From: Vagococcus penaei
Lineage (GTDB): Bacteria > Bacillota > Bacilli > Lactobacillales > Vagococcaceae
Direction of reading: 5' to 3'
Length of the DNA stretch: 64,000 nt
Assembly: GCF_001998885.1 (NCBI RefSeq)
Contig: NZ_CP019609.1
Coordinates: forward strand, 2,220,001-2,284,000
Part shown: piece by piece, positions 4,539 to 20,611 of the stretch
How the letters are laid out: every line of letters begins with the position of its first letter
Numbering within the stretch: position 1 is the first letter of the stretch
Translations under genes and position numbers: made by a program
Notes under the pieces: model-generated
The model's database searches: none
What the model was told of the DNA's origin: nothing
What the model saw: the letters and a program-made list of their open reading frames with translations, nothing else

Positions 4539-4830
4539 TACTGGTGAAAGAAAAAAATTGTTTATTTTTAGTATATTAATAGTGTGAGGAGGCTAAATCT
4601 TCATCCTTTGGTATAGAATATACATGTTGTGCTAGTTGACTTGGCATTCTTAAGACATAAAAGTTTTACATTCTCTAAATTAAAAAAATGAATAAATCAA
4701 TATTTTCAATAAACATAAAACATTTAAATTTAAAGTTTATCACTAGCATATTACTTAAAACCTAAATTATTTTTAATTAGGTATAATAGATGATATAATA
4801 TTTCATTAGTAATTAGTTATGGAGGGAAAC
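4539..4830. promoter_or_regulatory. Upstream region and promoter of the type II RM genes
   Basis: This very A+T-rich stretch has no gene. Two TATAAT hexamers (4782-4787 and 4794-4799) precede the methyltransferase gene and are the likely -10 elements; no good -35 is evident. The ribosome binding site GGAGGG at 4821-4826 fixes the methyltransferase start at 4831. Confidence 0.45.
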
Positions 4831-6078
4831 ATGATAAAATTTATTGATCTTTTTGCAGGTATGGGTGGTATACGGATAGGTTTTGAGAAAGCAGCTGCAA
4901 ATTTAAATATAGAAACTAAATCTGTGTTCGTATCGGAGATTAAGAAACATGCTATTAGTGCTTATAGTGATAACTTTAATGAAACTATTCATGGCGATAT
5001 TACTGCTATTAACGCCAAAGCTATCCCTGATTTTGATATACTATTAGCTGGTTTTCCTTGTCAAGCATTCTCAAATGCAGGAAACAGACTAGGATTTGAT
5101 GATACTAGAGGTACTTTGTTTTTTGATGTTGCTAGAATTCTTAAAGAAAAGCAACCGTATGGTTTTATATTAGAAAATGTAGAAGGGCTAGTATCACATG
5201 ACAAGGGGAATACCTTTAGAGTAATTACAAATGTATTGGATGCATTAGAGTACAATGTATCTTACAAAGTGTTAGATAGTCAAAATTTTGGACTAGCACA
5301 ATCAAGAAAAAGAATTTATATTGTAGGCACTAAAGGAAAAAAGGTAGATTTAAATTCATTTAAGAAAAAGGAATCTATTTTGAATGATGTTTTAGAGTTT
5401 GATGTTAAACCAATAGATTGCGAATTTTCTGAAAAACTATTATCACACTTTTCTCTATCAGATGTGATTGGGAAACAAATTAAAGATAAAAGAGGTGGAG
5501 AAAATAATATTCACAGTTGGGACTTTGAGTTAAAAGGTGAGGTAACTGAGGATCAAAAAGAATTGTTGGAACTATTATTGAGACAAAGGCGCAATAGAAA
5601 ATGGGCAGAAGTCATAGGTATTGATTGGATGGATGGTATGCCGTTAACCAAAGAAATGATAGAGACTTTTTATGATAACCCTAATTTAGAAGAGATGTTA
5701 GAAGATTTAACTAAAAAAGAATATTTGGTTTATGAGCATCCAAAACAAAAAATAAATGGAAGAAGAGTATATGATACAAGCTTAGAGAAGGGATACAATA
5801 TTGTTACAGGCAAACTCTCGTTTAAGTATAATAGAATTTTAGATGGTCATGCTGTGACTCCTACACTAGTGGCAACAGATGTTTCGAAATTGGGAGTTGC
5901 TGTCCAAGATGGTATACGTCCTCTTACAATTAGAGAAGGATTGAGATTGTTTGGTTTTCCTGAGGAATACAAATTAGATTTACCTAAAAGTAAGGCATAT
6001 GATTTACTTGGTAATACGGTTGCTGTCCCAGTTATAGAAGCAATAAGCACGGAATTACTAAAAAACTACAAAGCTTGA
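4831..6078 (+). CDS. DNA (cytosine-5) methyltransferase, type II RM
   Basis: This 415-residue C5-cytosine methyltransferase protects host DNA from the neighbouring endonuclease. The conserved motifs appear in order: I (DLFAGMGG, 6-13), IV with the catalytic Cys77 (GFPCQAFSNAG), VI (ENV, 115-117), VIII (QSRKRIYIVG), a variable target-recognition region (about 190-320), IX (TLVATD) and X (GNTVAVPVIEAI). The start at 4831 follows GGAGGG; the in-frame ATG at 4819 overlaps that site and is unlikely. The endonuclease gene lies 54 bp downstream. Homology to the methyltransferases of NgoBV/NlaIV-type (GGNNCC) systems is possible, but the specificity is inference. Confidence 0.94.
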   Translation: MIKFIDLFAGMGGIRIGFEKAAANLNIETKSVFVSEIKKHAISAYSDNFNETIHGDITAINAKAIPDFDILLAGFPCQAFSNAGNRLGFDDTRGTLFFDVARILKEKQPYGFILENVEGLVSHDKGNTFRVITNVLDALEYNVSYKVLDSQNFGLAQSRKRIYIVGTKGKKVDLNSFKKKESILNDVLEFDVKPIDCEFSEKLLSHFSLSDVIGKQIKDKRGGENNIHSWDFELKGEVTEDQKELLELLLRQRRNRKWAEVIGIDWMDGMPLTKEMIETFYDNPNLEEMLEDLTKKEYLVYEHPKQKINGRRVYDTSLEKGYNIVTGKLSFKYNRILDGHAVTPTLVATDVSKLGVAVQDGIRPLTIREGLRLFGFPEEYKLDLPKSKAYDLLGNTVAVPVIEAISTELLKNYKA

Positions 6079-6132
6079 CCCAGTAATATAAGTTTGCTAG
6101 ACTTTTCTTAAAGTGCATTTAGGGGGTCTAGT

Positions 6133-6795
6133 ATGAAAAACTTAGATGAATTATATGAGTTAGCTTTAAAAGACATAAAAGGACAGATTGGAACTATCAC
6201 AATTACAATCGGAGGAACACCAAAAATCAGTAGTACAAACGATATTATTGGTAATTGTGTACAAGAATGGATACCACAGTGGTTAGAAGACAATGGCTTA
6301 GATCTAACTGTCAATAAACAAACACAAGTATTTCCAGATTTTATTGCTAAAATTGATGGCAAAGAATACAATATGGAAGTTAAGTGTTTTAATTTAAATA
6401 ATGGACCAGGTTTCGATTTAGCTAATTTCGGTGGTTTTTATGATTCAATCTATAAAGATCCAACAAAATTAAATGCAAAATATTTGGTCTTTGCATACAG
6501 ACCAACTACTCATGGATTTAGAATCGAAGAAGTATATATGAAAAATTTGTGGGAATTAACTAAAAGAACACCAAAATACCCGGTTTCACTTCAAGTTAAG
6601 AGAGAACAACCTTATGCTATACGACCATCAAATTTTCACACACGACCAAACGAAATGTTCTCTACAAGAAGAGAGTTTTTAGAAGCAATAAAAGAGGTTC
6701 GTGAAATGTTTCCATTCGATGGAAGTGTTGATCCAGATATGTGGTTTTCAGAAATTGAAAGAAACTTCCAAAAATTAACAGGGGAAGAATTATAA
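6133..6795 (+). CDS. Type II restriction endonuclease (NgoBV-like)
   Basis: This 220-residue protein follows the cytosine methyltransferase by 54 bp and is the matching restriction enzyme. A PD-(D/E)XK nuclease core is visible: PD at 68-69 (VFPDFIAKIDG) and EVK at 82-84 (NMEVKCFN). The following stretch (FDLANFGGFYDSIYKDPTKLNAKYLVFAYR) resembles, from memory, the NgoBV endonuclease family that cuts GGNNCC. The family call is moderately sure and the site specificity is unproven. The start follows AGGGGG. The gene ends at the apparent right edge of element 1. Confidence 0.75.
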   Translation: MKNLDELYELALKDIKGQIGTITITIGGTPKISSTNDIIGNCVQEWIPQWLEDNGLDLTVNKQTQVFPDFIAKIDGKEYNMEVKCFNLNNGPGFDLANFGGFYDSIYKDPTKLNAKYLVFAYRPTTHGFRIEEVYMKNLWELTKRTPKYPVSLQVKREQPYAIRPSNFHTRPNEMFSTRREFLEAIKEVREMFPFDGSVDPDMWFSEIERNFQKLTGEEL

Positions 6796-7035: not shown

Positions 7036-8178
7036 TTACATTCCCATGAATTTAGCAAATCGATCCCCAGTTTCTTTGATAGATTGTGGTGTGACGTGAG
7101 CATAGATATTCATAGTTGTTTTTATATCTTTATGCCCTAAACGTTCTTGAACTTCTTTGATAGAAGCACCACTTTCAAATAGCAAACTACAATGAGTATG
7201 CCTAAATCCATGAGGGGTAATTTGTAAATCCATTGGCGATTTTTTGTAAATCCAATTTAACCAGTCATTTACAGCCTGAGGGTAATACAAATTATTATCT
7301 TTGGTTGTGAAAACAAATTGTTCAGGTGAATTAGTATTAAATCCATACATTAACATTGTTTCCATTTGCTCTTGTTTCCATAATCTTAACTGTTTAAGCG
7401 TTGAATCATCCAGTTTGATTGTTCTAGTAGAACTTTTTGTTTTAGGAACTTGAAGGACAACCTTTTGAAATTCGTCCTGAGCGACTGTTTTACCGATTCT
7501 AAGGGTTTTATTTAAGAAATCTATATCTTCCCACTGAAGGGCTAATCCTTCGCTTTTACGCATACCTGTAAAGACTAATAGACGGAAGAAAGTATATAGT
7601 TTTGTACTATTATTCTTTTGAACATTTTCTAAGAATAAAACTAACTGATCTTTTGTATAAAATTTAATCGGTTGCTCTTCTTCAATTTTTCTAGGTAATA
7701 ACGTTTTAGACATTGGATTACTTTTACAGACTTCCATAGCTACACCAAATTTGAATATTTGGGCGGTAGTTTTTCTGAGAAAAGCATATTGTTTGAGTTT
7801 TCCATGCCATATATTGACTTGTTTTTGACAATAGCTAACGGTAATTTTATCTAGTTTCATTTTACCGAAAGCAGGTAGGATATGATTCTTACAGAAACGT
7901 TGTGCAACTGCGACAGAAGAGGGTTTAACTCTCATTCGGTAGTTATCTATCCATAATTCATATAACTCTTCAAACGTTGTGACATTGATACGAAATTCTT
8001 CTTGTTCTTTGTACTCAACTAAAAGCTTGTTTAAAGCACTTTGAGCTTCAGCTTTCGTCTTAAAACGTCTTCTTTTGGTCCTAATATCTTTCCCAGTTCG
8101 AGGATCTTTCCCTAAATAAGTTTCAAATCCCCAATACTTGTCTCCATTTTTAAGTTTGTAATTAAAAAATGTTGCCAT
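7036..8178 (-). CDS. int: Tyrosine site-specific integrase (element 2)
   Basis: This 380-residue integrase has the same length and domain order as the one at 177-1319. The N-terminal arm-binding domain lies at about 1-60 and the core-binding domain at about 65-165. The catalytic residues are R207 (TGMRKSE), H323 and R326 (HGFRHTH), H349 (LGHKD) and Y359 (NIY). The start is supported by AAGGAGAG on the minus strand. It reads outward toward the left end of element 2. The two proteins are clear homologues, almost identical around the HGFR-to-LGHKD segment. Confidence 0.94.
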   Translation of the reverse strand: MATFFNYKLKNGDKYWGFETYLGKDPRTGKDIRTKRRRFKTKAEAQSALNKLLVEYKEQEEFRINVTTFEELYELWIDNYRMRVKPSSVAVAQRFCKNHILPAFGKMKLDKITVSYCQKQVNIWHGKLKQYAFLRKTTAQIFKFGVAMEVCKSNPMSKTLLPRKIEEEQPIKFYTKDQLVLFLENVQKNNSTKLYTFFRLLVFTGMRKSEGLALQWEDIDFLNKTLRIGKTVAQDEFQKVVLQVPKTKSSTRTIKLDDSTLKQLRLWKQEQMETMLMYGFNTNSPEQFVFTTKDNNLYYPQAVNDWLNWIYKKSPMDLQITPHGFRHTHCSLLFESGASIKEVQERLGHKDIKTTMNIYAHVTPQSIKETGDRFAKFMGM

Positions 8179-8238
8179 ATTGATTCTCTCCTTTACTTCA
8201 TTTTGCAGGTAGAGAAGTTATTTGAAGAATCAATTGTT

Positions 8239-8982
8239 TTAATGTTTATTGCAGTATAATTTTTTTAAATAATTATAGTCTAAAACACCATAATCTAAAG
8301 TAATGACCTTGTTAAATGTATTTTCAATGAATGTATTAAGGAAAATTGTATCGTTATTACCAAAAATAATGTTAGAAGAATCAATATTACCACTAAAATC
8401 TTTAAGTATTTGTTCTTCATTAATCGTATTATCAAATATTATTGTTTCAATCTCTTGTGAGTTATTAATAGATGTGTAGATTATTACACTGGTAATTTTA
8501 TCGTAAATAACTCGTGCTTTTTCGTATATCTCTAATATTAAATCCATTACATTTTTTTGATCTAAATTAAGAAATTGGTGTCCTATTCCAGTTAGTGAAT
8601 ATTCCCCAATTTCTTGATATATATGTAAATATTCGTTTTTTGTTCCTGAAAACTTTAAACGATAAGTATTATATTTATCATCTATGCCTGTTGGAAAAGC
8701 AAGAATAGAGTCATCATAAACACTGTTTAATTTAATAATGTTTACACCATAATTATCATAAGTAAAGTAATCTTGTTCTAAAAAATAGCTGACAGGAATA
8801 TCATAAAAATTTGCGATTTTTTTTAATGTCTTATCACTAGGAATTCTTTTCCCAGTCTCAAACCTTGATAAACTCATATATGACATACCAATTTCGCTAG
8901 CTAATTCTTCTAATGTGAGTTGATTCTTATTCCTAAGAACTTTTAATTTTCTTTTTAATAGTTCATTTTGGTTTTGATTCAC
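8239..8982 (-). CDS. XRE-family repressor of the mobile element
   Basis: This 247-residue protein has an N-terminal Cro/CI-type helix-turn-helix (LTLEELASEIGMSYMSLSRFETGKRIPSDKTLKKIANFYD, about residues 20-60). A long C-terminal domain that I do not recognise follows; no peptidase motif is evident. The GTG start at 8982 is chosen because GAGGTG sits at the right distance, whereas a GTG three codons earlier lacks a site. It is divergent from the excisionase-like gene, with an inverted-repeat operator between them, so it probably represses the mobility genes. Confidence 0.85.
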   Translation of the reverse strand: MNQNQNELLKRKLKVLRNKNQLTLEELASEIGMSYMSLSRFETGKRIPSDKTLKKIANFYDIPVSYFLEQDYFTYDNYGVNIIKLNSVYDDSILAFPTGIDDKYNTYRLKFSGTKNEYLHIYQEIGEYSLTGIGHQFLNLDQKNVMDLILEIYEKARVIYDKITSVIIYTSINNSQEIETIIFDNTINEEQILKDFSGNIDSSNIIFGNNDTIFLNTFIENTFNKVITLDYGVLDYNYLKKLYCNKH

Positions 8983-9002
8983 AAATATCACCTCATTAGT
9001 AT

Positions 9003-9075
9003 TTTAACATCAAATGGTATCAATGTCATATTAAAGTCGCATTTACTATTGAATGATATATTAAATGATGTTAAA
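9003..9075. promoter_or_regulatory. Divergent operator region of element 2
   Basis: A perfect 10-bp inverted repeat TTTAACATCA (9003-9012) and TGATGTTAAA (9066-9075) lies between the divergent repressor and excisionase-like genes. A degenerate extra half-site reads ATCAATGTCATATTAAA. A TTGAAT hexamer at 9050-9055 may be a -35 for rightward transcription. The layout is typical of a repressor-controlled switch. Binding is inferred. Confidence 0.55.
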
Positions 9076-9178
9076 CTATATTTATAAAAGTCGCATATAT
9101 GTCGTAATTTTATATTTATATGACTTTTTATAGCAGGTAGAGGGATTAGAGAATAATCAATTGAAAGGAGAGAGGTAC

Positions 9179-9463
9179 ATGGAGTCAATTAAACTAATGA
9201 TTTCAGAAGAACAACAAGAAATATTTTTAAAAGAGTTTTACAAAATTGCTATGACGGCCATAGAAAGAGCAGGACAGAATACAGGTAGCACAAGAGAATA
9301 TTTGAATCAGAAAGAAATGGGTGATTATTTAAACGTAAGTGAGAATTTCTTAAAAGAAGCGGTTAGAAATGAAGGATTACCAGTTGCGACTCTCGGAAGA
9401 AGAAAATTTTATTCTAAGAAAGCAGTGAATGAATTTATGCTAAAGAGGTTAAAAAGCTATTGA
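9179..9463 (+). CDS. xis: Excisionase-like helix-turn-helix protein
   Basis: This 94-residue protein has a MerR/excisionase-type winged helix (LNQKEMGDYLNVSENFLKEAVRNEGLPVATLGRRKFYSKKAVNEFML), as in Tn916-type and phage excisionases that bend DNA at att sites. The ATG at 9179 follows AAGGAGAG; the in-frame TTG at 9161 overlaps that site. It is the first gene of the rightward mobility and replication transcript. An excision role is inferred from the domain and the integrase nearby. Confidence 0.75.
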   Translation: MESIKLMISEEQQEIFLKEFYKIAMTAIERAGQNTGSTREYLNQKEMGDYLNVSENFLKEAVRNEGLPVATLGRRKFYSKKAVNEFMLKRLKSY

Positions 9464-9486
9464 TGATATTAGTAGTTAAATTAAAA

Positions 9487-9530
9487 AATGCTCTTGTTCG
9501 TTTTGGTAGACAGTCAAGAGCATTCTTAAA
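9487..9530 (+). terminator. Hairpin, possible weak terminator or attenuator
   Basis: A 10-bp perfect stem AATGCTCTTG / CAAGAGCATT with an 18-base loop lies between the excisionase-like and replication genes. It is followed by only a weak T tract (CTTAAAT), so it may be an attenuator or processing site rather than a full stop. Confidence 0.5.
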
Positions 9531-9591
9531 TAAAGATTTTAGAAATTTTATCTGTTTCTATTGTAACATTTCATAGAAAGAAGATGAATAA

Positions 9592-10470
9592 ATGGCAGAA
9601 AAAAGAATGTTATCGAAAGCGTTTATTAGTAGTGCAAGCTTTATGAAAATGTCAGATTCAGCGAAATTATTGTATGTATATTTAAACGTCAATGCAGATG
9701 ATGATGGGATAGTTGAAGTTTTTCCATATTCACAAATGCTTGGTACTCCAGAAGATGATGTTAAAGTACTATTAACAAAAGGATTTATATTTTTTTTGAA
9801 CGGGGACTGGTTAGCTTTTTTACCTCACTGGCTACAAAATCAGTATATTAGGAATGATAGATATAAGGCGTCAATTTATCATAATCAGTTATTAAATATG
9901 AATCCAGATTTTTTTAATAAGATTCCAGAAGCACCAATAAAACAAATATTAGATAAAAAGCAGACTGAGATATTAAAAAAAGATCTTTTTGATAAGTGGT
10001 ATTCAGCAGGTATGTCAAGTGACTACCAAAGCGATACTCAGTTAAAGTCAAATAAAACTAATTTAGTTAAATCTAACTTAAATAAAATTAGTGTAGATGA
10101 GATTAGTCAAATTGAAACAGACACCCCATATATCAACAGCAATAATGTTATTGATAATGAAGGTCTTAGTATAATAAATAAGATGGGTGATAGATTTTCT
10201 GATGCACAACGAAGAAAATTTATAGGTATTATTTTATCTATGAAAAATTCAGTAGAAAGAGAATATAAAATTGAGATAAATGCAACATATTTCAATGACA
10301 AAACTAATAAAATGTTAAAGAAACTATTTACAACTATGAACGATAAATTGAACAAGGGAGTATTACTAGATGAAATAGCATACGTAAATACAAGTGCTAG
10401 AAATCACTGGAAGGAAATAGCAGAAGTTGAAAAGAAGTCATTCAATAATGTTATGAATATGACTTATTGA
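9592..10470 (+). CDS. Replication initiator-like protein (replisome organizer type)
   Basis: This 292-residue protein resembles the N-terminal domain of phage replisome organizers and plasmid/ICE replication proteins (RMLSKAFISSASFMKMSDSAKLLYVYL, ending in LPHWLQNQYIRNDRYKAS). That region is a winged-helix domain of about 110 residues. A polar linker and a C-terminal helical part follow, where a DnaD-like function is possible. It lies between the excisionase-like and mobilization genes. A role in autonomous replication of the excised circle is inferred. Confidence 0.65.
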   Translation: MAEKRMLSKAFISSASFMKMSDSAKLLYVYLNVNADDDGIVEVFPYSQMLGTPEDDVKVLLTKGFIFFLNGDWLAFLPHWLQNQYIRNDRYKASIYHNQLLNMNPDFFNKIPEAPIKQILDKKQTEILKKDLFDKWYSAGMSSDYQSDTQLKSNKTNLVKSNLNKISVDEISQIETDTPYINSNNVIDNEGLSIINKMGDRFSDAQRRKFIGIILSMKNSVEREYKIEINATYFNDKTNKMLKKLFTTMNDKLNKGVLLDEIAYVNTSARNHWKEIAEVEKKSFNNVMNMTY

Positions 10471-10492
10471 TTAAAAAAGGAGGGGAATTTTT

Positions 10493-11098
10493 ATGGATTC
10501 TAAGCAAAAAATCTATGACAGAAACAGAAAGAACAGTGAAGCATTAAATTTTCGAGTAGATAAGCGAACGTATAAAGAGATTTCTTTAATTGCAGAGCAA
10601 AAGGGTATCTCACGTGCAGAAGTATGCAGAGAACGATTAAAGGGGCTACAATACGAGCCCCCTCTACTGTCTGATTTAGATACTAAAGGACTAATTAAAG
10701 CCTTGAATCAGCTAGGAAACAACTTAAATCAAGCGACTAAAAGTTTGAATGCTATTGCGATTCATTTTCATAAGAAAGATGCATCAACTAATTCTTCTAC
10801 TGATCTTTTTAGAAATAAAAAGTACCAATTATTTGAGAATGAACAGGCTAATAAGATTGCTCAAGTATTTATGATTGTTGATCCCGACAAAGTATTTACA
10901 GAAGCTAATCTCAATAATATCCGTAGTAGTCAATTAAGTGACGAGGAAAAAAAGTATATGCAATACTGGATTGATAAAAACGAACGACCTCAGACTAAAG
11001 TTGAATACGCTACTTACATTCATAATAGACTCAATAAAGCACTAGCAAGCATTCAAATGATGGAAGAGCAGAGTGAAAAGCTATGGGAGCTAGTGTAA
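10493..11098 (+). CDS. mobC: MobC-like relaxosome accessory protein
   Basis: This 201-residue protein has an N-terminal ribbon-helix-helix-like part (LNFRVDKRTYKEISLIAEQKGISRAEVCRERL). The MobC signature follows: IKALNQLGNNLNQATKSLNAIA, near residues 63-85. MobC proteins help the relaxase melt and nick oriT. The start follows AAGGAGGGG. It overlaps the relaxase gene by 16 bp, which indicates translational coupling. Confidence 0.82.
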   Translation: MDSKQKIYDRNRKNSEALNFRVDKRTYKEISLIAEQKGISRAEVCRERLKGLQYEPPLLSDLDTKGLIKALNQLGNNLNQATKSLNAIAIHFHKKDASTNSSTDLFRNKKYQLFENEQANKIAQVFMIVDPDKVFTEANLNNIRSSQLSDEEKKYMQYWIDKNERPQTKVEYATYIHNRLNKALASIQMMEEQSEKLWELV

Positions 11099-12438
11099 CG
11101 TCATTAGGGAGGAAGAAAAATCTTTCCTCCCTTTTACAATATGCAGCCAATCCATCTAAAAAAGAAAAATGTGTCGCTGTAACAGGGATAAATTGCAGTG
11201 ATGAAATAGAAAAAGCGTATTTAATGATGAACAGAACGAGAACTAAAATGAATCACTCAAAGGACGTAACACAGGCGTATCACGTCATACATTCTTTTGA
11301 TAAAGAAATATCTAAAGAACTTTCAGAAGAACAAATGCATAAAATAGCGGTAGAGTTTGCGGAAAAATCATTTCCAAATTGCCAAATTATTGTCGCAAGT
11401 CACAATGACAAGGACCACTTTCATAGTCATTTAGTGATTAATAATATTGATACGGAAACGGGTAAACGAATTAGAATTGATCCAAAAGATTTAGAAAATA
11501 TGAGAGAAATAAATGATACTATTTTAAAAAGTCATGGATTAGAACCGATAGACAATGAATATTATGACGCTCTTTTTAGACGTAATAACATTTATTCTAA
11601 TGATCCATCCAAATTGAAAAAGGGACAAGTGAACTATCAACAAGTTATTCAAAATGCTATTGATGAGGTGTTAAGAGATACAACTGTTACCTCTTTTGAA
11701 AAATTTTCAGATACTTTAGCAAAAAATCATGACATAGAAGTTTACAAGTTTTCTAAAAATAGCAACAAGTTGGGTTATGTTTTGTATAAAAAAGAATCAA
11801 ACTTTTATGAGAATAGAGAAAAATTTATTTATTTAGGTAAAGACAAAGCGTCACGAAAAATACGTGAACCGTATGTTGAAAAAACATTTAGTGCTAAAAA
11901 ATTAGGTAAGAGTTATGAGTTAGAGTCGATAGAAAAAGAGCTTGATTATAATCTAATGGATTATCAAATTAGTAATCTTGATAGCTTTAGTAAAGAAGAA
12001 CAGTTTATTATTTTGAATCAAAAAATTAATAAAACAGGGGAACTAGAAGAACCCTTTGTAGAATTAGATGAACCAGCACAACGTCAATTTAATCGAAAAG
12101 GTGCGCATCATTTTATGAAGTATGATGATTTTTTAAAGTCAGTTGATAAGCATTTTGCTACATCACTCGGTCCACTTGATGATGAAGAGTACGAAATAAA
12201 AGTGCATTTAAAAGTGAACAAGCAGACTTTAAAAAGTACCGAACATAAAAAAGTTGCAGTCAAAAAGACAGAAGAAAAACGGTATACATCACCACGTTTT
12301 GGTGTGGGGAGTTACGCTCATACGCCAAATGCACGAACCGTGCATCATCAAATTAGCAAAGTCATTAACGATGATGTGAAGATGTATCGTGCTAAAAAAG
12401 ACTATGAATTTATGCAACATAAGATCGAAATGGAGTAA
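11083..12438 (+). CDS. mobA: Relaxase, MOBP family
   Basis: This 451-residue relaxase should nick one strand at oriT and pilot it into a recipient. The N-terminal relaxase domain shows a candidate catalytic tyrosine in LLQYAANPSK (about residue 20). Motif III has metal-binding histidines in HNDKDHFHSHLVINN (about 105-120). The C-terminal half is charged and not recognised. The start overlaps the MobC-like gene. No coupling protein or secretion genes are present, so transfer would need a helper. Confidence 0.88.
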   Translation: MGASVTSLGRKKNLSSLLQYAANPSKKEKCVAVTGINCSDEIEKAYLMMNRTRTKMNHSKDVTQAYHVIHSFDKEISKELSEEQMHKIAVEFAEKSFPNCQIIVASHNDKDHFHSHLVINNIDTETGKRIRIDPKDLENMREINDTILKSHGLEPIDNEYYDALFRRNNIYSNDPSKLKKGQVNYQQVIQNAIDEVLRDTTVTSFEKFSDTLAKNHDIEVYKFSKNSNKLGYVLYKKESNFYENREKFIYLGKDKASRKIREPYVEKTFSAKKLGKSYELESIEKELDYNLMDYQISNLDSFSKEEQFIILNQKINKTGELEEPFVELDEPAQRQFNRKGAHHFMKYDDFLKSVDKHFATSLGPLDDEEYEIKVHLKVNKQTLKSTEHKKVAVKKTEEKRYTSPRFGVGSYAHTPNARTVHHQISKVINDDVKMYRAKKDYEFMQHKIEME

Positions 12439-12638: not shown

Positions 12639-12673
12639 ACAGACTCCCTGAATAAAATGAAGAGGTGGATAAT

Positions 12674-13081
12674 ATGAAAAAATCAAAAAATACCGAAATA
12701 AAAAAGATAAAACGAGAATTAAAAATAAAAAAAGAAGCAAAAATTTATGATGATATTGAGCAACGAGTTGCATGGTTATATGAAAATAAATTTACAAAAA
12801 TTGAATCAGAAGTTGTATTTGAAATTAATTTTTACAAGGATGTTTATCAAGAAGATATTGACGAATTAATGTTGTTTCATGCAAAAAAAGTTTTTATGGT
12901 GGAAAAAGATGATGACTATTATTGTGGAATAAGAGCTAACCATTTTGTGGTAGAAGTGGGGTATTCTGAAATGAGAGCAAAACTAATTTATTTAGTAACT
13001 GCCAATCATAAAGGGAATAGATGTGTGACAATGATAGCAGAAGATAATGAAAACTATTTAGAAATATGTTCAATGAAATAG
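12674..13081 (+). CDS. Hypothetical protein of element 2
   Basis: This 135-residue protein begins with a Lys-rich helix (KKSKNTEIKKIKRELKIKKEAKIYDD) and continues into a compact alpha/beta-looking domain. I do not recognise a family. The ATG at 12674 follows AGAGGTGG; an in-frame GTG at 12665 overlaps that site. It follows the structured segment and precedes a strong terminator, so it may be controlled by the upstream structure. Confidence 0.6.
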   Translation: MKKSKNTEIKKIKRELKIKKEAKIYDDIEQRVAWLYENKFTKIESEVVFEINFYKDVYQEDIDELMLFHAKKVFMVEKDDDYYCGIRANHFVVEVGYSEMRAKLIYLVTANHKGNRCVTMIAEDNENYLEICSMK

Positions 13082-13161: not shown

Positions 13162-13938
13162 CTAAAATTCTTTAGTTACAAATGATGCATCATTATCTTC
13201 TGGTTTTGGTAATCCGTCTAGACTTCCGTTAAAAGTGTTCATTTTATCAAGTAACCATTTATTTTTTGTTGAATCAAAAATAAAGGTGAAATTCAAAGGT
13301 TGATTCTTATGTTCTAATGGAGCGTCTAAATAGTCTGGGTGATAATCATAATCAAAATATCCAGCTAAAACAAAAGATAGTTGCCCTTCGATTAATTGTA
13401 AATTAAATAGTTGATCGTATCCGTAAATTTTCTTTAACGACATCTTATCTATATCTTCTGATATAAATGTAGAGTCATTTATATTATCTTTGGTTTCATT
13501 ATAGAAATTATCGGTATAATTATTAATTTGATTGAAATCTTTATTTTGTCCTGCTTTAAAAAACTGTTCGATTTTTTCGATATATAGATTTGATAGCTCA
13601 TTACTGTTTGCTTTGAAAGAAATATTATTATGATTCCAATCAACTACTGTCTTATTAAGAAGAGGTAATTCAGCTTCAAAATATATTTCTGATTGATGTT
13701 CTTGAATGTTTTTTGGGAGAATGGTTTCAATCGCATTATTTTCTGATAACTTTACATCTAGAGATTTTTTGTCATAATATGCAGTGAAATTATCAGGAAT
13801 TGGGGCGAAAGAAACTGGATATTCTATTTCAGTAGAATTTGTGGTATGAGACGTTTCTGTTTTTAATGTTCATTATTAGAACATCCACCAATGATTAAAG
13901 TTGATAAGAATAAAAAAATAAAATGCTAGTTTTTTCAA
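13162..13938 (-). pseudogene. Frameshifted lipoprotein gene
   Basis: On the minus strand a TTG start after AGGAGG opens a lipoprotein signal (residues KKLAFYFF). The lipobox LIIGGCSNNE is in another frame, reached only by a shift in a T-rich run. A second shift just after the lipobox (near 13867) is needed to enter the long open frame that begins TLKTETSHTTNSTEIEYPVSF and runs to the stop at 13162. The intact ancestor would be about 255 residues. The function is not recognised. Two shifts in the signal region suggest decay; a sequencing error in the homopolymer is possible for one of them. Confidence 0.7.
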
Positions 13939-13964: not shown

Positions 13965-14049
13965 TGGACCTAAACTAGTCCCATTGTAACACACCTAATC
14001 TCTAAAATTAATAAGAAAACGGACTTATTTTGGTCCAAAAGGTGTGTTA
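13965..14049. promoter_or_regulatory. Palindromic operator between divergent genes
   Basis: A perfect 10-bp inverted repeat TAACACACCT (13987-13996) and AGGTGTGTTA (14040-14049) lies between the decayed lipoprotein and the XRE gene. An overlapping, interlocked 6-bp pair TGGACC (13965-13970) and GGTCCA (14032-14037) is also present. The right arm ends two bases before the XRE start codon, as expected of an autoregulatory operator. Confidence 0.5.
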
Positions 14050-14051
14050 AC

Positions 14052-14288
14052 ATGAAAGAAGAAAAAATTATTGATAAAGAAAATATAATTGGTAGTAATA
14101 TAAGACGGATTAGAATAGAAAATCAAATAGGCCAAACAGAATTGATTAGAGAATTGTAGTTAAATAAAATTGACATGACTCGGGAAACACTAGTGAAAAT
14201 TGAAGGTGGTCGTCAACATATTAAACTGATTCAATTAAAAGCCATTAGAGATATATTAAATGTTACTTATGATGATTTACTGAACTAG
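14052..14288 (+). pseudogene. XRE-family regulator with internal stop
   Basis: A 79-codon frame encodes a Cro/CI-type helix-turn-helix (IGSNIRRIRIENQIGQTELIREL, stop, LNKIDMTRETLVKIEGGRQHIKLIQLKAIRDILNVTYDDLLN). A TAG at codon 36 (14157-14159) interrupts the DNA-binding domain, so the gene is probably inactive unless the stop is suppressed or miscalled. It lies 51 bp upstream of two membrane protein genes and may once have regulated them. Confidence 0.75.
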
Positions 14289-14339
14289 AAATTTTATGAT
14301 AGTATTTGAAAAAATTATGTAAACTTGTGGAGGTATGAA

Positions 14340-15131
14340 ATGAAAAGTTTTTTTGATTTTAAGCAATGGCGTAAATTTATTTTATTATTAATATCTATTT
14401 CTTTCATAGGTCTAGTTGGAAGAATAAGCCCTTATGGATCAGAAATTTGGAACTTTTTGTTCGAAAATATGATTTGGTTTCCAGTTGAAATGGGAATAAC
14501 AATATTTGTTTTCGATAAAATTATTCAAAAAAACAATTTAAAAATAGAACATAATAGAAAATATAATGAATACTATTCAGTAGCAGAAACTGATTTAAAT
14601 AAATTGCTACAAACAATAAAATTACACAGTGTATCAGCATTAACAAATAGTCAATTGGAAGGTGATAAATTAGACAAGGAATTTGCTAATGTTTGTAATA
14701 ATATACCCGAACTTATTACAATAAATAAATTACGTGAAGGCTTGAATACTCAGTTATTGAACCCTAATAATGTGATTGATTCTATGATTAATCCAAAATT
14801 TGTTAGAAAATCATACTATGATTCTCTGGGTGAATCTGGGGATAATATTATTAATAATATATATAGTCACTACATGTTATATTCAAAGTTTATTCCAGTT
14901 GATCTATATAGAGAATTAAATAATTTAAGAGATTTTTTTGAAAGTAATATATATTTTTCAACAAATAATAATTTGAAATTTGGACGTAGTATGCTAGTGC
15001 AAAGAGAAAATGATGGATTAATGCTTGATAACGAGTATCAACAAACGATTGATATTTTAACGGAATCATATTCTATTTTGTATAAAAAGATAATGACGAT
15101 TGAAAACATGATAAGTGAAAGTAATCTCTAA
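14340..15131 (+). CDS. Unrecognised two-helix membrane protein, candidate defence
   Basis: This 263-residue protein has two predicted transmembrane helices (about 13-31 and 42-59). A cytosolic domain of about 200 residues follows, rich in Asn, Leu and Ile and apparently helical. No known motif is visible. The ATG at 14340 follows TGGAGG; an in-frame TTG at 14325 overlaps that site. The next gene, 45 bp downstream, also encodes a two-helix membrane protein, and a type III restriction system follows. The arrangement suits a membrane effector pair, for example abortive infection, but this is inference from context only. Confidence 0.6.
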   Translation: MKSFFDFKQWRKFILLLISISFIGLVGRISPYGSEIWNFLFENMIWFPVEMGITIFVFDKIIQKNNLKIEHNRKYNEYYSVAETDLNKLLQTIKLHSVSALTNSQLEGDKLDKEFANVCNNIPELITINKLREGLNTQLLNPNNVIDSMINPKFVRKSYYDSLGESGDNIINNIYSHYMLYSKFIPVDLYRELNNLRDFFESNIYFSTNNNLKFGRSMLVQRENDGLMLDNEYQQTIDILTESYSILYKKIMTIENMISESNL

Positions 15132-15176
15132 TCTTGCTATTTAACGGTTTTATAAACATATTAGAGAGGTGTTAAA

Positions 15177-15839
15177 TTGAAAATATTTGTTAAACAGTTG
15201 GTTAGTCTGTTTTGTGTTGTATTTTGTATGTTCTTTTGTTTTTTCACAGGGTGGAATGAATGGACAGCCATAGCTTTATCGTTGGTTATGTTTTGTGGTC
15301 TATGGTTCGAGGATATCAAGTTATTGAAAATTAATAAAAATGGATTTGAAATGGAAAAATTGATATCTGAAAATAAAAAAATAAATGAAGAAATCAACGT
15401 TACTTTAGAAAAATTTAACAATACTATTGTACCTTTTTTAGACTTTTCGTTAGGATTAATAGAAAAAGATGGGAAATTTGATTCTGTAATGGAATATTCT
15501 TATATTGAAGGATTTGTTAAGTCAGCTTATGAATTAACAGAGGAAACGAGTAATAATTCAAAACAAACAGAAAAGTTACTCCAAATCGCAAATATCAAAG
15601 TATTAGAATCATTTAAGTATAAAGTTAGGTGTGAGTATCCAGAAATATACAATGATGTTGATAAACTCATCATTACAGGTAGTCCAATATATATATATGA
15701 TACATATAATATTTCAGCTATCGAAGTGAATATAGCGGATTTAAGGGATTTAGCAAATAGCTTGGAACGAAGTAAAAAATTATTGTGGCAACAAGATGTT
15801 GATAGTTTAGAAGATTTTTATGTGAATTATATTCAATAA
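15177..15839 (+). CDS. Unrecognised membrane protein with coiled coil
   Basis: This 220-residue protein has two short hydrophobic helices near its N-terminus (about 8-25 and 30-45). A coiled-coil-like stretch (about 50-85, EMEKLISENKKINEEINVTLEKF) and a helical cytosolic domain follow. The TTG start follows AGAGAGGTG and no ATG alternative exists. It lies 45 bp after a gene of similar architecture and ends at its own terminator, so the two form a probable bicistronic unit. Function is unknown. Position beside type III RM genes suggests a defence-related role. Confidence 0.6.
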   Translation: MKIFVKQLVSLFCVVFCMFFCFFTGWNEWTAIALSLVMFCGLWFEDIKLLKINKNGFEMEKLISENKKINEEINVTLEKFNNTIVPFLDFSLGLIEKDGKFDSVMEYSYIEGFVKSAYELTEETSNNSKQTEKLLQIANIKVLESFKYKVRCEYPEIYNDVDKLIITGSPIYIYDTYNISAIEVNIADLRDLANSLERSKKLLWQQDVDSLEDFYVNYIQ

Positions 15840-15847
15840 TAAAGGGA

Positions 15848-15880
15848 GGCTAGAATTTATTTTCTAGTCTTTTTTTTTAC
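15848..15880 (+). terminator. Rho-independent terminator
   Basis: GGCTAGAA / TTCTAGTC (one G-T pair) with a short T-rich loop and a run of nine T residues ends the membrane protein pair, separating it from the restriction operon. Confidence 0.85.
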
Positions 15881-15983
15881 TCAATAGTTTATAGATAAAA
15901 AATGGTCATAGTATTAAGGATAAGTATATTTATTTGTTAATAAATTTGTTATCAAGAACTCTCAATAACTATCAAAATAATGA

Positions 15984-15989
15984 TATAAT
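15984..15989 (+). promoter_or_regulatory. Likely -10 box of the type III RM operon
   Basis: A perfect TATAAT lies 31 bp upstream of the methyltransferase start. A weak -35 candidate (CTCAAT) is 17 bp upstream of it. The AGGAGGA ribosome binding site is at about 16010-16016. Confidence 0.45.
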
Positions 15990-16020
15990 CAAAGCAATTA
16001 AGTGTTTTTCAGGAGGAATT

Positions 16021-17907
16021 ATGGATACGAAAATTAATCAAGCCATTAAATCGGTGTTGCTGATGTTTGGTGATAAATATTTTATTGGTGAGATCATCAA
16101 TAAGCAAAAAGTGATTCATGACTTAGATAATTATGACAAAGAATTAATGACAAAAATGTTGTCAAATGACGTTGTGAAAAGTAATTTTACAACGGCTATC
16201 AATGATGCCATTATTTTTAATGTAAACAAATTAGTAGAATTATTTGAAACGAATGACTACTGGCAAGATTCTTATACAAAATATTCAAAAAAAATTGGGT
16301 TAACAGCTAATGGGAAATTTATTGATGAAACAACTGAAGTCGTGTTAGATTTTCCTTATAAGGATACAGTGTTAAAAGCAGGGATGACCCAAGAAGATCT
16401 AGCGAAAGATGATTTAAGACCCGATGAACCATTTCTTAATGAAGTGATTGCGAAAGAAGAAATTGATGTACTGTTGGATAAAAAGTTATTAGTAAACGCT
16501 AAGAAGTATGATATAGAAGGCGAGCATAAAGTTTCTGAAATAACCGAAGATGATAATCTAATCTTAAAAGGTAATAATTTGTTAGCTCTTCATAGTTTAA
16601 AAGAACGTTATGCAGGGAAAGTTAAATTAATCTATATAGACCCGCCTTATAATACTGGAAATGATAGTTTCCAATATAATGATAGATTTAATCATTCAGC
16701 ATGGCTAACGTTTATGAAAAATCGTTTAGAAATAGCACGTGACCTTTTAACAGAGGATGGAAGTATTTGGATAAATATTGATGATGATGAAAGCCATTAT
16801 TTAAAAGTTTTGTGTGATGGTATTTTTGAAAGAGAAAATTTTCTTGCAAATATTATTTGGCAAAAGAAATATACCATTGCTAATGACGCAAAATATTTTT
16901 CTGATAGTCATGATCATATTCTAGTGTATTCGATGAGGAAAGAGACATTTAAACTAAATGGCTTACCTAGAAGTGAAGAAATGAATGCAAGATATAAAAA
17001 TCCTGATAATGATTTCAGGGGGCCTTGGATGACACAACCTCTTCACGCTAAGAGTGGAAAAAATAGCGATTTTTCGTATACTTTTAAAAATGGAGTTACT
17101 TGGGAACCACCAAGAGGAACATTTCCAAGATACTCTTTTGACTCTTTGAAAGAATATGATAACAATAATATGATTTGGTTTGGTAAAGATGGTAAATCAG
17201 TCCCTAGATTAAAAAAATATCTTTCTGATATGGGAAATGTTACGCCTAATACTTTATGGTTACATACTGAAGCAGGGAATAATGATCAGGCTAATAAAGA
17301 AATAAAGAGATTGATTGAAGATTTTAATTTTTCAACACCCAAACCAGAAAAACTGTTACAACGAATTCTTCATATTGGTTCAGATGAAGGTGACTTAGTA
17401 GTGGATTTCTTCATGGGTTCTGCAACCACTCAAGCCGTGGCTATGAAAATGAATCGTCGTTTTATTGGGATTGAACAAATGGACTATATTGATACCGTAT
17501 CAGTTCCGAGACTTCAAAAAGTCATTGAAGGAGAACAAGGTGGGATTTCTAAAGAAGTTGATTGGCAAGGTGGTGGTTCATTCATCTATGCTGAATTAAT
17601 GGAAAAGAACACAGGTTTCTTAAAAGAAATTATCGAAGCAGATACTATGCAAGAACTACAAGCTATTTTTGAACGAATGAGTCAATCACCTGATATTGAT
17701 TTTAGAGTGGATTTAGAAGAGGTTAAGGCGACCTTATGGGAACATTCACTTGAAGAACAAAAGAAAACCTTGATTAAAATACTAGATAAAAATCAGTTGT
17801 ATTTCAACTATTCAGAAATAGATGATGCGCACGTTCGAGAATTAGTGTCTGACTCAGATTATGCCTTTAATCAGAGCTTTTATAAGGAAGTGAATCAAGA
17901 TGGCTAA
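16021..17907 (+). CDS. mod: Type III RM adenine methyltransferase (Mod)
   Basis: This 628-residue Mod subunit recognises the site and methylates adenine. The beta-class order is visible: catalytic motif IV DPPY at 207-210 (YIDPPYNTGND), then a central target-recognition region (about 290-440), then the AdoMet motif I (DFFMGSATTQAVAM, about 462-475) and GIEQMDY. The start at 16021 follows AGGAGGA; an in-frame TTG at 15934 has no such support. The gene overlaps res by 8 bp, so Mod and Res are translationally coupled and should assemble into one complex. It looks intact. Confidence 0.95.
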   Translation: MDTKINQAIKSVLLMFGDKYFIGEIINKQKVIHDLDNYDKELMTKMLSNDVVKSNFTTAINDAIIFNVNKLVELFETNDYWQDSYTKYSKKIGLTANGKFIDETTEVVLDFPYKDTVLKAGMTQEDLAKDDLRPDEPFLNEVIAKEEIDVLLDKKLLVNAKKYDIEGEHKVSEITEDDNLILKGNNLLALHSLKERYAGKVKLIYIDPPYNTGNDSFQYNDRFNHSAWLTFMKNRLEIARDLLTEDGSIWINIDDDESHYLKVLCDGIFERENFLANIIWQKKYTIANDAKYFSDSHDHILVYSMRKETFKLNGLPRSEEMNARYKNPDNDFRGPWMTQPLHAKSGKNSDFSYTFKNGVTWEPPRGTFPRYSFDSLKEYDNNNMIWFGKDGKSVPRLKKYLSDMGNVTPNTLWLHTEAGNNDQANKEIKRLIEDFNFSTPKPEKLLQRILHIGSDEGDLVVDFFMGSATTQAVAMKMNRRFIGIEQMDYIDTVSVPRLQKVIEGEQGGISKEVDWQGGGSFIYAELMEKNTGFLKEIIEADTMQELQAIFERMSQSPDIDFRVDLEEVKATLWEHSLEEQKKTLIKILDKNQLYFNYSEIDDAHVRELVSDSDYAFNQSFYKEVNQDG

Positions 17908-20611
17908 GAAGACGAAAGAAACGTTTAAACCATTATCACTGCCTTTATATGATGAGCTTGTTCAACTGGATCATAGTTTACTAAATGAAGCGTTAGGATG
18001 GAGCACCCCAACGTATTTAGCTGAAAATATGGTACATACGTTCCGTGATTATCAGGAGTCTGCTTTACGTTATTTCCACTACACCATGACGAATAAAGTC
18101 TTCGAGTACCGCAGAATTAACCATGCGCTGTTTAACATGGCAACGGGCTCAGGGAAAACAGATTTGATGGCTGGGTTAATCTTGTATTTGTATCAAGAAC
18201 ACAATTATCAGAACTTTTTATTTATTGTGAATACTAATAGTGTATTAAATAAAACGATTGATAACTTAACGAATAAGCAATCTAATAAGTATTTATACAA
18301 GTCAGTGATTGAAATAGATGGGGAACGTTTGTCGATTGTAAAAGTTGATGAGTTTCCTAAAAATCAAAGTAAGAACACGATTTACATTAAATTAGCCAGT
18401 GTACAATCCGTTGCGAGTGATATTTTCACGCAAGGTGAGAATTCAATGGGAGCGCAAGATTACGCTAGAAATAAAGTGGCTATTTTAGGAGACGAAGCCC
18501 ATCACTATTCAGCGTCTACTAAGTCTGAAAAAGAAATGGAACAATCATGGGAAAAAGCGATTAATACCATATTAAACGCCAATGAAGACAATAAGCTGTT
18601 AGAATTTACGGCGACTATTGATTTAGAAAATAAGAAAGTCTATGAGAAATACAAAGATAAGGTGTTATATCGCTATGGTTTAGATCGTTTTATTCAAGAC
18701 CGTTATTCTAAGAATGTTAAACGAATTCAGTCAAGCAATACAGATGAAGAAAACATGCTGAATGTCGTGTTATTAAGTGAGTTTAGACGTCGCTATGCCT
18801 TTGAATTATATGGTACTTATATCAAACCAGTGATTATGTTTAAATCACAAAAAATTGATGCGTCAAATGAAGCAAACGACCTGTTTAATCAACTGATTGA
18901 CAAGTTAACACCAGACTATATTTTAACGTTTCTTGAAAGACAAGCAAAAGTCATGTCTGAAGATCAAAGTGAGACGTTAGGTTTTGCCTATAATTACTTC
19001 TTAAAAAATAAAGAAGACTTACCTCAAATTGTCAAAGAAATGAAGCGTGAGTTCTCACCAAGTCGCATTATTAACGCTAACGATAGTGATCGTGGGGCGG
19101 GAATGCTTGAAAAAGGACAATATGAAGCGTTAAATAGCTTAGAAAGTCCTAATAACTTATATCGTGTCGTTTTTGCGGTAGCGAAATTAACAGAAGGTTG
19201 GGATGTTTTAAATCTGTATGATATTGTCAGAATCAGTAATTATAAAGATACAAAAGGGGATAAGAAAACAACCATGGCTGAAGCCCAGTTAATTGGACGT
19301 GGGGCAAGGTATAATCCGTTTGAATTAGATGGTGAAAAATCTTATCAAAGACGATTTGAAGATGATAGCAATCCAAGTTTGATTTTAGAAACATTACATT
19401 ATCATACAATCAATGAACCACAGTATCTGAAAAACTTAGTAGCTGCTTTAGATGAAATGAACTTACCAACGGGCGAAGATAAGAAAAACCCGCTATTAGA
19501 TGTTAAAGTTAAACCCAAATTCAAGAAAACGGATGTCTGGAAATACGGTAAACTGTATTATAACCAATCTATTGAGTTATCGGATGATTACTATGACGGT
19601 TTAACTAAATATTCACTAGATAACCAAGAAGATATTGTCATTAATTGGTTATCTTCAGCAAAAGAAGTAAGCTACAAAGCGGATATGGTGTATGAAGATT
19701 ATACAGATATGCACCAAATACCTGTTGAAATTGATAGACGATTCATAGAAAAAGCTATGAATCGCTTAACATTTTTCCATTTTGATAACCTTAAAAAATA
19801 TATGCCATTATTAAATTCAAGAGAAGATTTTTTAGGGGAAAAATGGTTAAATATTACCAATCGTACAATATACGCAAACGTTCCAATGAAAATGACACGT
19901 CATGATTTAACAGCACAAGAAAAGCTGAGAATTGTTGAATTATATTTAGCAGAAGTGGCTCAAAAAATTAAGAAGAACTTTAACAGTCATAGGGGGACGA
20001 ATAAATTCATTGGCTATCCAGTAAAAGACTATGTGACGGATTATAAGAAACGTATTCCTAACTATGATACGTCTAAATTATTCATGGATAAAAACCCTCA
20101 AACAGTACAACGTTTTGTGATTGATGATGATTATTTTGTGTACGAATCAGCGATTATTAACTTAACAGAAAAACAATTGATTGATCGTATTGGGGAACGG
20201 GTACAAGAATTAAAAGAGCATTATTCAGAAGTTTACTTGATACGTATGGATGAAAACATGCATAGAGAATCAGCTAAAAGTGAAAACATGAAGCTACATG
20301 AGTTTAACCCTAACGCTAAAGATGTTCACTTTGAAGGCTTCCAACCAGACTTCATTCTATATCTTCAAAATGCCGACTTTTTCTTACAAGTCTTTATTGA
20401 ACCAAAAGGTGGTAAAATCGAAGAACAACAATGGAAAGAAGACTTGTTGATGTATATTAACGAACATGAAGTAGAATTAGCTTTTGAAGATGAATTAGAA
20501 GGCGTTAAAATCAAAGGACTAAAATTCTACATAATCAATGACGGTAGAAATACTATGAAACAACTTGCCAGAATTGCGATTGATGGTGAGTTTAGAGGGT
20601 TGAGTATGTAG
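17900..20611 (+). CDS. res: Type III restriction subunit (Res)
   Basis: This 903-residue Res subunit translocates on DNA and cleaves near pairs of unmethylated sites together with Mod. The superfamily 2 helicase motifs are present: Walker A ATGSGKT (81-87), DEAH (198-201), TAT (in EFTATID), motif V (TEGWDVLNLYDIVRIS) and motif VI (AQLIGRGARYNPF). The C-terminal PD-(D/E)XK nuclease is visible as QPDFILYL (about 815) and IEPKGG (about 833). The length is usual for the family. It overlaps mod by 8 bp and is followed by a strong terminator. Confidence 0.95.
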   Translation: MAKKTKETFKPLSLPLYDELVQLDHSLLNEALGWSTPTYLAENMVHTFRDYQESALRYFHYTMTNKVFEYRRINHALFNMATGSGKTDLMAGLILYLYQEHNYQNFLFIVNTNSVLNKTIDNLTNKQSNKYLYKSVIEIDGERLSIVKVDEFPKNQSKNTIYIKLASVQSVASDIFTQGENSMGAQDYARNKVAILGDEAHHYSASTKSEKEMEQSWEKAINTILNANEDNKLLEFTATIDLENKKVYEKYKDKVLYRYGLDRFIQDRYSKNVKRIQSSNTDEENMLNVVLLSEFRRRYAFELYGTYIKPVIMFKSQKIDASNEANDLFNQLIDKLTPDYILTFLERQAKVMSEDQSETLGFAYNYFLKNKEDLPQIVKEMKREFSPSRIINANDSDRGAGMLEKGQYEALNSLESPNNLYRVVFAVAKLTEGWDVLNLYDIVRISNYKDTKGDKKTTMAEAQLIGRGARYNPFELDGEKSYQRRFEDDSNPSLILETLHYHTINEPQYLKNLVAALDEMNLPTGEDKKNPLLDVKVKPKFKKTDVWKYGKLYYNQSIELSDDYYDGLTKYSLDNQEDIVINWLSSAKEVSYKADMVYEDYTDMHQIPVEIDRRFIEKAMNRLTFFHFDNLKKYMPLLNSREDFLGEKWLNITNRTIYANVPMKMTRHDLTAQEKLRIVELYLAEVAQKIKKNFNSHRGTNKFIGYPVKDYVTDYKKRIPNYDTSKLFMDKNPQTVQRFVIDDDYFVYESAIINLTEKQLIDRIGERVQELKEHYSEVYLIRMDENMHRESAKSENMKLHEFNPNAKDVHFEGFQPDFILYLQNADFFLQVFIEPKGGKIEEQQWKEDLLMYINEHEVELAFEDELEGVKIKGLKFYIINDGRNTMKQLARIAIDGEFRGLSM

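Follow-up and report, generated by a model that had tools for sequence, protein, structure and literature searches.

In a 64 kb stretch of the Vagococcus penaei genome (contig NZ_CP019609.1, positions 2,220,001 to 2,284,000; called the window below, with coordinates counted along it) two small adjacent genes, here named A and B, encode putative membrane proteins. Both resemble 'moron' genes that are otherwise largely found in temperate phages and a phage satellite of Gram-positive bacteria. We tentatively read A and B as a chromosomal-island copy of such genes, whose most likely role would be the protection of their carrier against other phages. The genomic context of their relatives suggests that B and the closer relatives of A travel as cargo on phages, satellites and islands; from the links of A to AbiH and GmrSD we infer a role in phage exclusion. 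If this is right, two undescribed membrane protein families join the anti-phage repertoire of Gram-positive bacteria; if it is wrong, A and B remain an uncommon pair of phage morons without a known use.

A first-pass annotation, made from the DNA letters alone, had proposed an abortive-infection-like system of two membrane proteins at this site. Its observations are mostly right, apart from a regulator gene that turned out to be broken, and its interpretation is partly supported: the link to defence is better founded than its author could know, whereas the claim of a two-gene system has become weaker.

Two predicted membrane proteins

Genes A and B are co-directional, and B starts 45 nt past A (Table 1), a spacing that suggests one common transcript. 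Both open reading frames (ORFs) are taken as genes and not as chance frames, because homologues exist elsewhere. Their G+C contents of 24.7% (A) and 27.1% (B) lie under the window mean of 33.4%. ORF and hydropathy analyses agree with the annotated pair of N-terminal membrane helices in each product: the best 19-residue means of the two hydrophobic segments are 2.01 and 1.51 for A and 2.32 and 1.63 for B, the second segment being the weak one in both proteins. The N-termini are positively and the short loops negatively charged, so that an N-in/C-in topology fits.

The AlphaFold model of A is good (mean pLDDT 84.9) and shows helices at residues 7-29, at 35-102 (a long one) and then, among others, at 159-184, 187-202, 210-224 and 230-262. 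In a PDB fold search residues 67-263 align with generic four-helix bundles. The motif PYGxExWNFxFENxIWxPxE, located at the second membrane helix, is common with small departures to the close group of A proteins (8 sequences). For the coiled coil that had been proposed in B, a 3.5-residue periodicity of residues 48-95 gives a weak hint (p = 0.0145, uncorrected, one of three segments tested), but the structure model of B is unreliable (pLDDT 49.1). Both proteins had also been described as built to the same plan; this holds for the architecture, whereas a profile comparison found no relation between A and B.

Families were searched in Pfam, NCBIfam, PADLOC and PHROGs, with matches up to E ≤ 1 listed for Pfam and PADLOC. 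A has no Pfam match in this range, none above cut-off in NCBIfam and 0 PADLOC families. For B, Pfam lists only PIN_2 at 0.044, below cut-off, NCBIfam gives nothing above cut-off and PADLOC again 0 families. In PHROGs, A matches phrog_31983, a phage family of unnamed function, at 5.3e-5 over residues 44-131 (88 of 198 profile positions). Within the reach of Pfam, PADLOC and NCBIfam, and of the PDB fold search for A, the proteins are thus undescribed, as first annotated, and no description of either appeared among the open-licence PMC papers listed.

Phage-linked relatives and exchanged neighbours

For A and B each, profile searches were run in 395 genomes of the order, the window's own included. 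A was found in nine of these genomes at ten places (eight of the 394 others) and B in three (two of the 394 others). Further scans for A gave four loci in genome contigs and eight in viral contigs, partly overlapping. Outside the window this amounts to 17 distinct A loci and five B loci. Neither gene has a match in 72,556 plasmid records; among 50,697 phage records A has 0 matches and B one.

All five B loci have a phage setting (phage, prophage or satellite), and four of them place B in or beside lysis genes. In a prophage-like contig (L025) B stands between holin and CHAP-like lysin genes (by eye). The same position is seen in L046, with an r1t-type holin and a 94-aa ORF on one side and a CHAP lysin on the other; its B is 83% identical to that of L025, and both loci may represent one lineage. 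At a third locus (L039, also recovered as L026) the gene is flanked by a GDSL-type hydrolase on one side and by a holin with a glucosaminidase on the other. In phage record LT985591 (L015) it follows a lysin-like gene and precedes a PBECR4 nuclease-like gene (PF18813, 3.8e-22), with a second similar ORF recognised by eye (L015:4663-5277, 6062-6637). The fifth locus, in satellite phage Javan627 (L040:11383-12912), has B split in two frames. There, the split gene is followed by one for a protein of 263 aa that has membrane segments at its N-terminus (by eye) and no match in any other of the 50,697 phage records. A weak partial B match in genome G706 was set aside.

The lysis neighbours of four B loci raise the explanation that the B family tunes the timing of its phage's own holin and lysin and that the present copy was left behind as a remnant next to an A gene unrelated to it. 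We regard this as quite improbable: near B in the window no lysis genes are recognised, none is annotated in Javan627, where most genes are unnamed, and the great rarity of B in the collections searched is unlike a general lysis function.

Among the 17 A loci, nine belong to phages or prophages (L027, L030 and L031-L037), two lie upstream of abiH, one is in a GmrSD region and five stand alone. L027 (= L016) is a prophage-like region of Listeria rustica. In a prophage-like region of Liquorilactobacillus mali (L030 = L038) a terminase small-subunit gene (PF03592, 8.1e-30) follows 22 bp past A; this A is 25% identical to that of the window and covers the full phrog_31983 profile (1.3e-136), a family to which A of L027, L028 and L031 has no match. 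The remaining seven, closely related IMG/VR contigs (L031-L037), carry A copies that are 95.7-100% identical and therefore count as about one lineage. Ahead of packaging genes A is found in L031, L032, L036 and L027 (by eye); the next genes are common to L034, L035 and L037, and the contig of L033 stops just past A. Throughout this lineage A is immediately preceded by either of two phrog_19998 alleles, which are 26-27% identical (family membership tested for L031 and L036). In these cassettes A is nearly constant and its upstream gene is swapped for a distant allele.

In two further genomes abiH comes directly after A. The locus of Vagococcus proximus (L028:6884-8820; = L017) has an AbiH match of 1.1e-21 (PF14253) and is flanked by lepA-like and PTS-like genes (by eye). 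In Enterococcus sp. BWB1-3 (L029:7968-9517; = L018) the AbiH is partial (PF14253, 2.1e-9), its gene being cut short ahead of insertion-sequence-like genes, and phage-like genes for tail and lysin proteins precede A (all by eye). Seen in two genera, this arrangement makes A a possible partner of AbiH in the membrane. In the order, 32 of 335 genomes encode AbiH (38 matches, none of them in the window's genome). For a gene carried by roughly a tenth of the genomes, a place next to A at two of 17 loci appears to be far more than chance would give. In an integrase-bearing region (L024) a GmrSD gene is located about 4.3 kb from A (GmrSD_N 6.9e-34; best PADLOC model Orf5, 1.6e-125). What lies next to A hence varies: B in the window, abiH in two genomes, and a phrog_19998 gene throughout one lineage of phages. 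The A loci illustrate partner exchange among phage-borne membrane proteins.

The same settings can be read as non-suicidal superinfection exclusion (Sie), in which the membrane proteins would keep related phages from injecting their DNA or getting it into the cell, and an infected cell would survive. It is favoured by the prophage locations and by the small size and membrane anchoring of the proteins, in which no catalytic domain is recognised. Among published Sie systems, membrane proteins are common, with HK97 gp15 (PMC4465916) and lactococcal Sie (PMC6356687) as examples. Two copies of A adjoin abiH, an abortive-infection gene, and the large cytosolic parts would rather point to signalling or action inside the cell. 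We judge Sie rather unlikely.

The five stand-alone loci (L019-L023) are of a different kind. They are remote chromosomal homologues from one genus (g25), 20-24% identical to the A of the window and without most of the motif, and no phage or defence context is seen among the genes listed there; in L019 and L023, A stands between 5'-nucleotidase-like and permease-like genes (by eye). Genome G394 carries both an AbiH-linked A (L018) and a remote stand-alone A (L022), which means that these groups are not related as simple orthologues. These single genes might indicate that the family of A is a general one of the envelope or of stress responses, with its phage and island copies as passengers and without joint action of A and B; that A and B co-occur nowhere else in the data searched would agree. 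This explanation is improbable in our view, given the remoteness of the group and the other 12 A loci outside the window, every one of which has a link to phages, AbiH or GmrSD.

The suspected defence context is supported by the closer relatives of A (prophages, AbiH twice, GmrSD once) and by all B loci, but not by the remote A loci. Homologues lying mostly outside defence contexts had been named at the outset as a finding that would refute the proposal. Overall this is not the case, but of the nine A loci that the order genomes have outside the window, four are phage- or defence-linked (L016 by prophage, L017 by AbiH, L018 by AbiH and phage, L024 by GmrSD) and five stand alone (L019-L023).

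Possible mode of action

In the protective role that we favour, A and B would each be anchored by a two-helix membrane hairpin, with the helical domain facing the cytosol. A would be the constant piece, next to which the neighbouring gene is exchanged (AbiH, the phrog_19998 membrane protein or B). One may speculate that infection, perhaps through the insertion of membrane or lysis proteins of the incoming phage, alters the helical domains, and that A and B respond by disturbing the membrane or by setting off lysis before any progeny can form. We think that abortive infection by such membrane perturbation or early lysis would be the likeliest outcome, because the proteins are predicted to be membrane-anchored, no catalytic domain is recognised, relatives of B occur at lysis genes and the lysis-causing proteins Abi-alpha and AbiZ offer an analogy.

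A more specific and rather unlikely version would make A a reusable membrane adaptor, whose hairpin and helical bundle sense infection at the membrane and activate the adjacent partner. Its partner would then differ from case to case, AbiH serving in some hosts, a phrog_19998 protein in one lineage of phages and B in the window. If true, this model would explain why partners are exchanged next to a near-constant A, and it would give AbiH a testable membrane trigger.

Several observations weigh against a protective function of the pair. A moron gene is not necessarily a defence gene. A and B do not form a conserved pair, which weakens the two-gene system first suggested: when 29 loci were searched with both profiles, the window alone had both genes and the 28 others did not, and in none of the 394 other genomes of the order do the two occur together (eight with A, two with B). 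AbiH does not need A either, since only one of the 30 AbiH loci examined (of the 38 matches, with flanks of ≤1.5 kb), that of V. proximus, has A beside it; B has no match among the ORFs of these 30 loci. The tallies for A lean on phage collections, as seven of the 17 loci come only from viral contigs and from one lineage. In the order genomes, the only A sample without phage bias, five of nine A loci are the stand-alone chromosomal ones, two of which have the same neighbours, and these remote homologues look like ordinary chromosomal genes. Besides, the PDB search gave no fold match for A beyond generic helical bundles, the family searches recognised no catalytic domain, and the regulator gene upstream of the pair is broken.

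Genetic surroundings and comparison with known systems

The features around A and B are compiled in Table 1.

Table 1. Features of the window around genes A and B.
Feature	Position	Strand	Description
Type II restriction-modification pair	4819-6795	+	C5 cytosine methylase (PF00145, 6.2e-84) and NgoBV-like endonuclease (RE_NgoBV, 1e-31); PADLOC
Mobilizable element	7036-12438		Integrase, XRE regulator, helix-turn-helix protein, replication-like gene (by eye), NikA-like gene, relaxase; Pfam
Two GGAC-N8-GTCC palindromes	13966-13981, 14021-14036		Candidate XRE operator; 55 bp apart
XRE-type regulator frame, pseudogene	14052-14288	+	In-frame TAG at 14157-14159; XRE label by eye, as in the first-pass annotation
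Gene A	14340-15131	+	263 aa; ATG start, GGAGG upstream; predicted membrane protein, N-terminal hairpin followed by helical cytosolic part
Gene B	15177-15839	+	220 aa; TTG start, AGAGAGGTG upstream; predicted hairpin at the N-terminus, then a helical cytosolic part that may form a coiled coil
Terminator-like hairpin after B	15841-15876	+	RNAfold -15.4 kcal/mol; T-run after it
Type III modification methylase	15934-17907	+	PADLOC MTase_III 2.4e-187; Pfam
Type III restriction subunit	17900-20611	+	PADLOC REase_III 1.4e-188; ResIII (Pfam)

Upstream of A, a regulator of the XRE type with a palindromic operator had been annotated. The palindromes exist, but the regulator frame is interrupted by an in-frame TAG that had been missed, so that the gene is broken as the sequence stands and control of A and B by a functional XRE protein is not supported. 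GGAC-N8-GTCC has three matches in the 64 kb, two of them being the sites at 13966 and 14021, which persist although the regulator is a pseudogene; a 15-nt inverted repeat is found in addition at 13982/14040. Two small adjacent genes behind an XRE-like frame and palindromes also recall a toxin-antitoxin pair, with one protein as a membrane toxin and the other as its neutraliser. No toxin or antitoxin family matched above cut-off in Pfam, PADLOC, NCBIfam or PHROGs, and A and B are each found without the other elsewhere, which is not expected of a toxin that depends on its neutraliser; we consider this explanation highly improbable. Downstream of B, the hairpin and its T-run agree with the terminator annotated there, which a consensus terminator scan did not contain.

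Divergent from the regulator frame, a lipoprotein-like gene (13162-13900, minus strand) is decayed, since its N-terminal signal part and its body are out of frame. Between the mobilization genes and A/B lies a 138-aa ORF (12665-13081) matching phrog_18751, a family of unnamed function (E 4e-18). The reported position of the pair between a mobilizable element and a type III restriction-modification system was confirmed by Pfam and PADLOC, the NikA-like and relaxase genes of the element occupying 10493-12438 (Pfam). The type II pair upstream of A/B is a second restriction-modification system of the island. Two tyrosine-type integrases have the same orientation (177-1319, by eye; 7036-8178, Pfam). 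SUF-operon-like genes (by eye) end 28 bp before the window start and are followed by the integrase-like gene at 177; no clear attachment repeat was found in the region searched. Taken together, these features suggest a mobile island with many restriction genes.

Among known families, the likeness of A to phrog_31983 is a profile match, extending over the full length in L030. The phrog_19998 membrane proteins adjoin A in L031-L037 and differ from it: neither A nor B matches this family, and the pairwise links in a set of 17 sequences are weak (best E 0.0005, 9.9 bits). Two further proteins, AbiZ and Abi-alpha, are associated with early lysis of infected cells. AbiZ has two N-terminal membrane helices and a leucine zipper. 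For AbiZ of Lactococcus, premature lysis with a proposed action on the phage holin is described in PMC6356687, which reports that infected cells likewise lyse prematurely with Abi-alpha (DUF4393) of prophage 6 of Enterococcus faecalis. The size of the Abi-alpha gene is similar to that of the genes studied here. We take early lysis here as an analogy and not as membership: A and B have no DUF4393 match in Pfam and no match in PADLOC, a library that was not checked for an AbiZ model. With AbiH (PF14253) the relation is an association, through the abiH genes directly downstream of two A homologues; A and B themselves have no AbiH match in Pfam or PADLOC. AbiH inhibited Vansinderenvirus, and its mode of action is listed as unknown (PMC12322248). 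If A and B are indeed defence genes, the A-abiH pairs would provide a handle on this old Abi gene.
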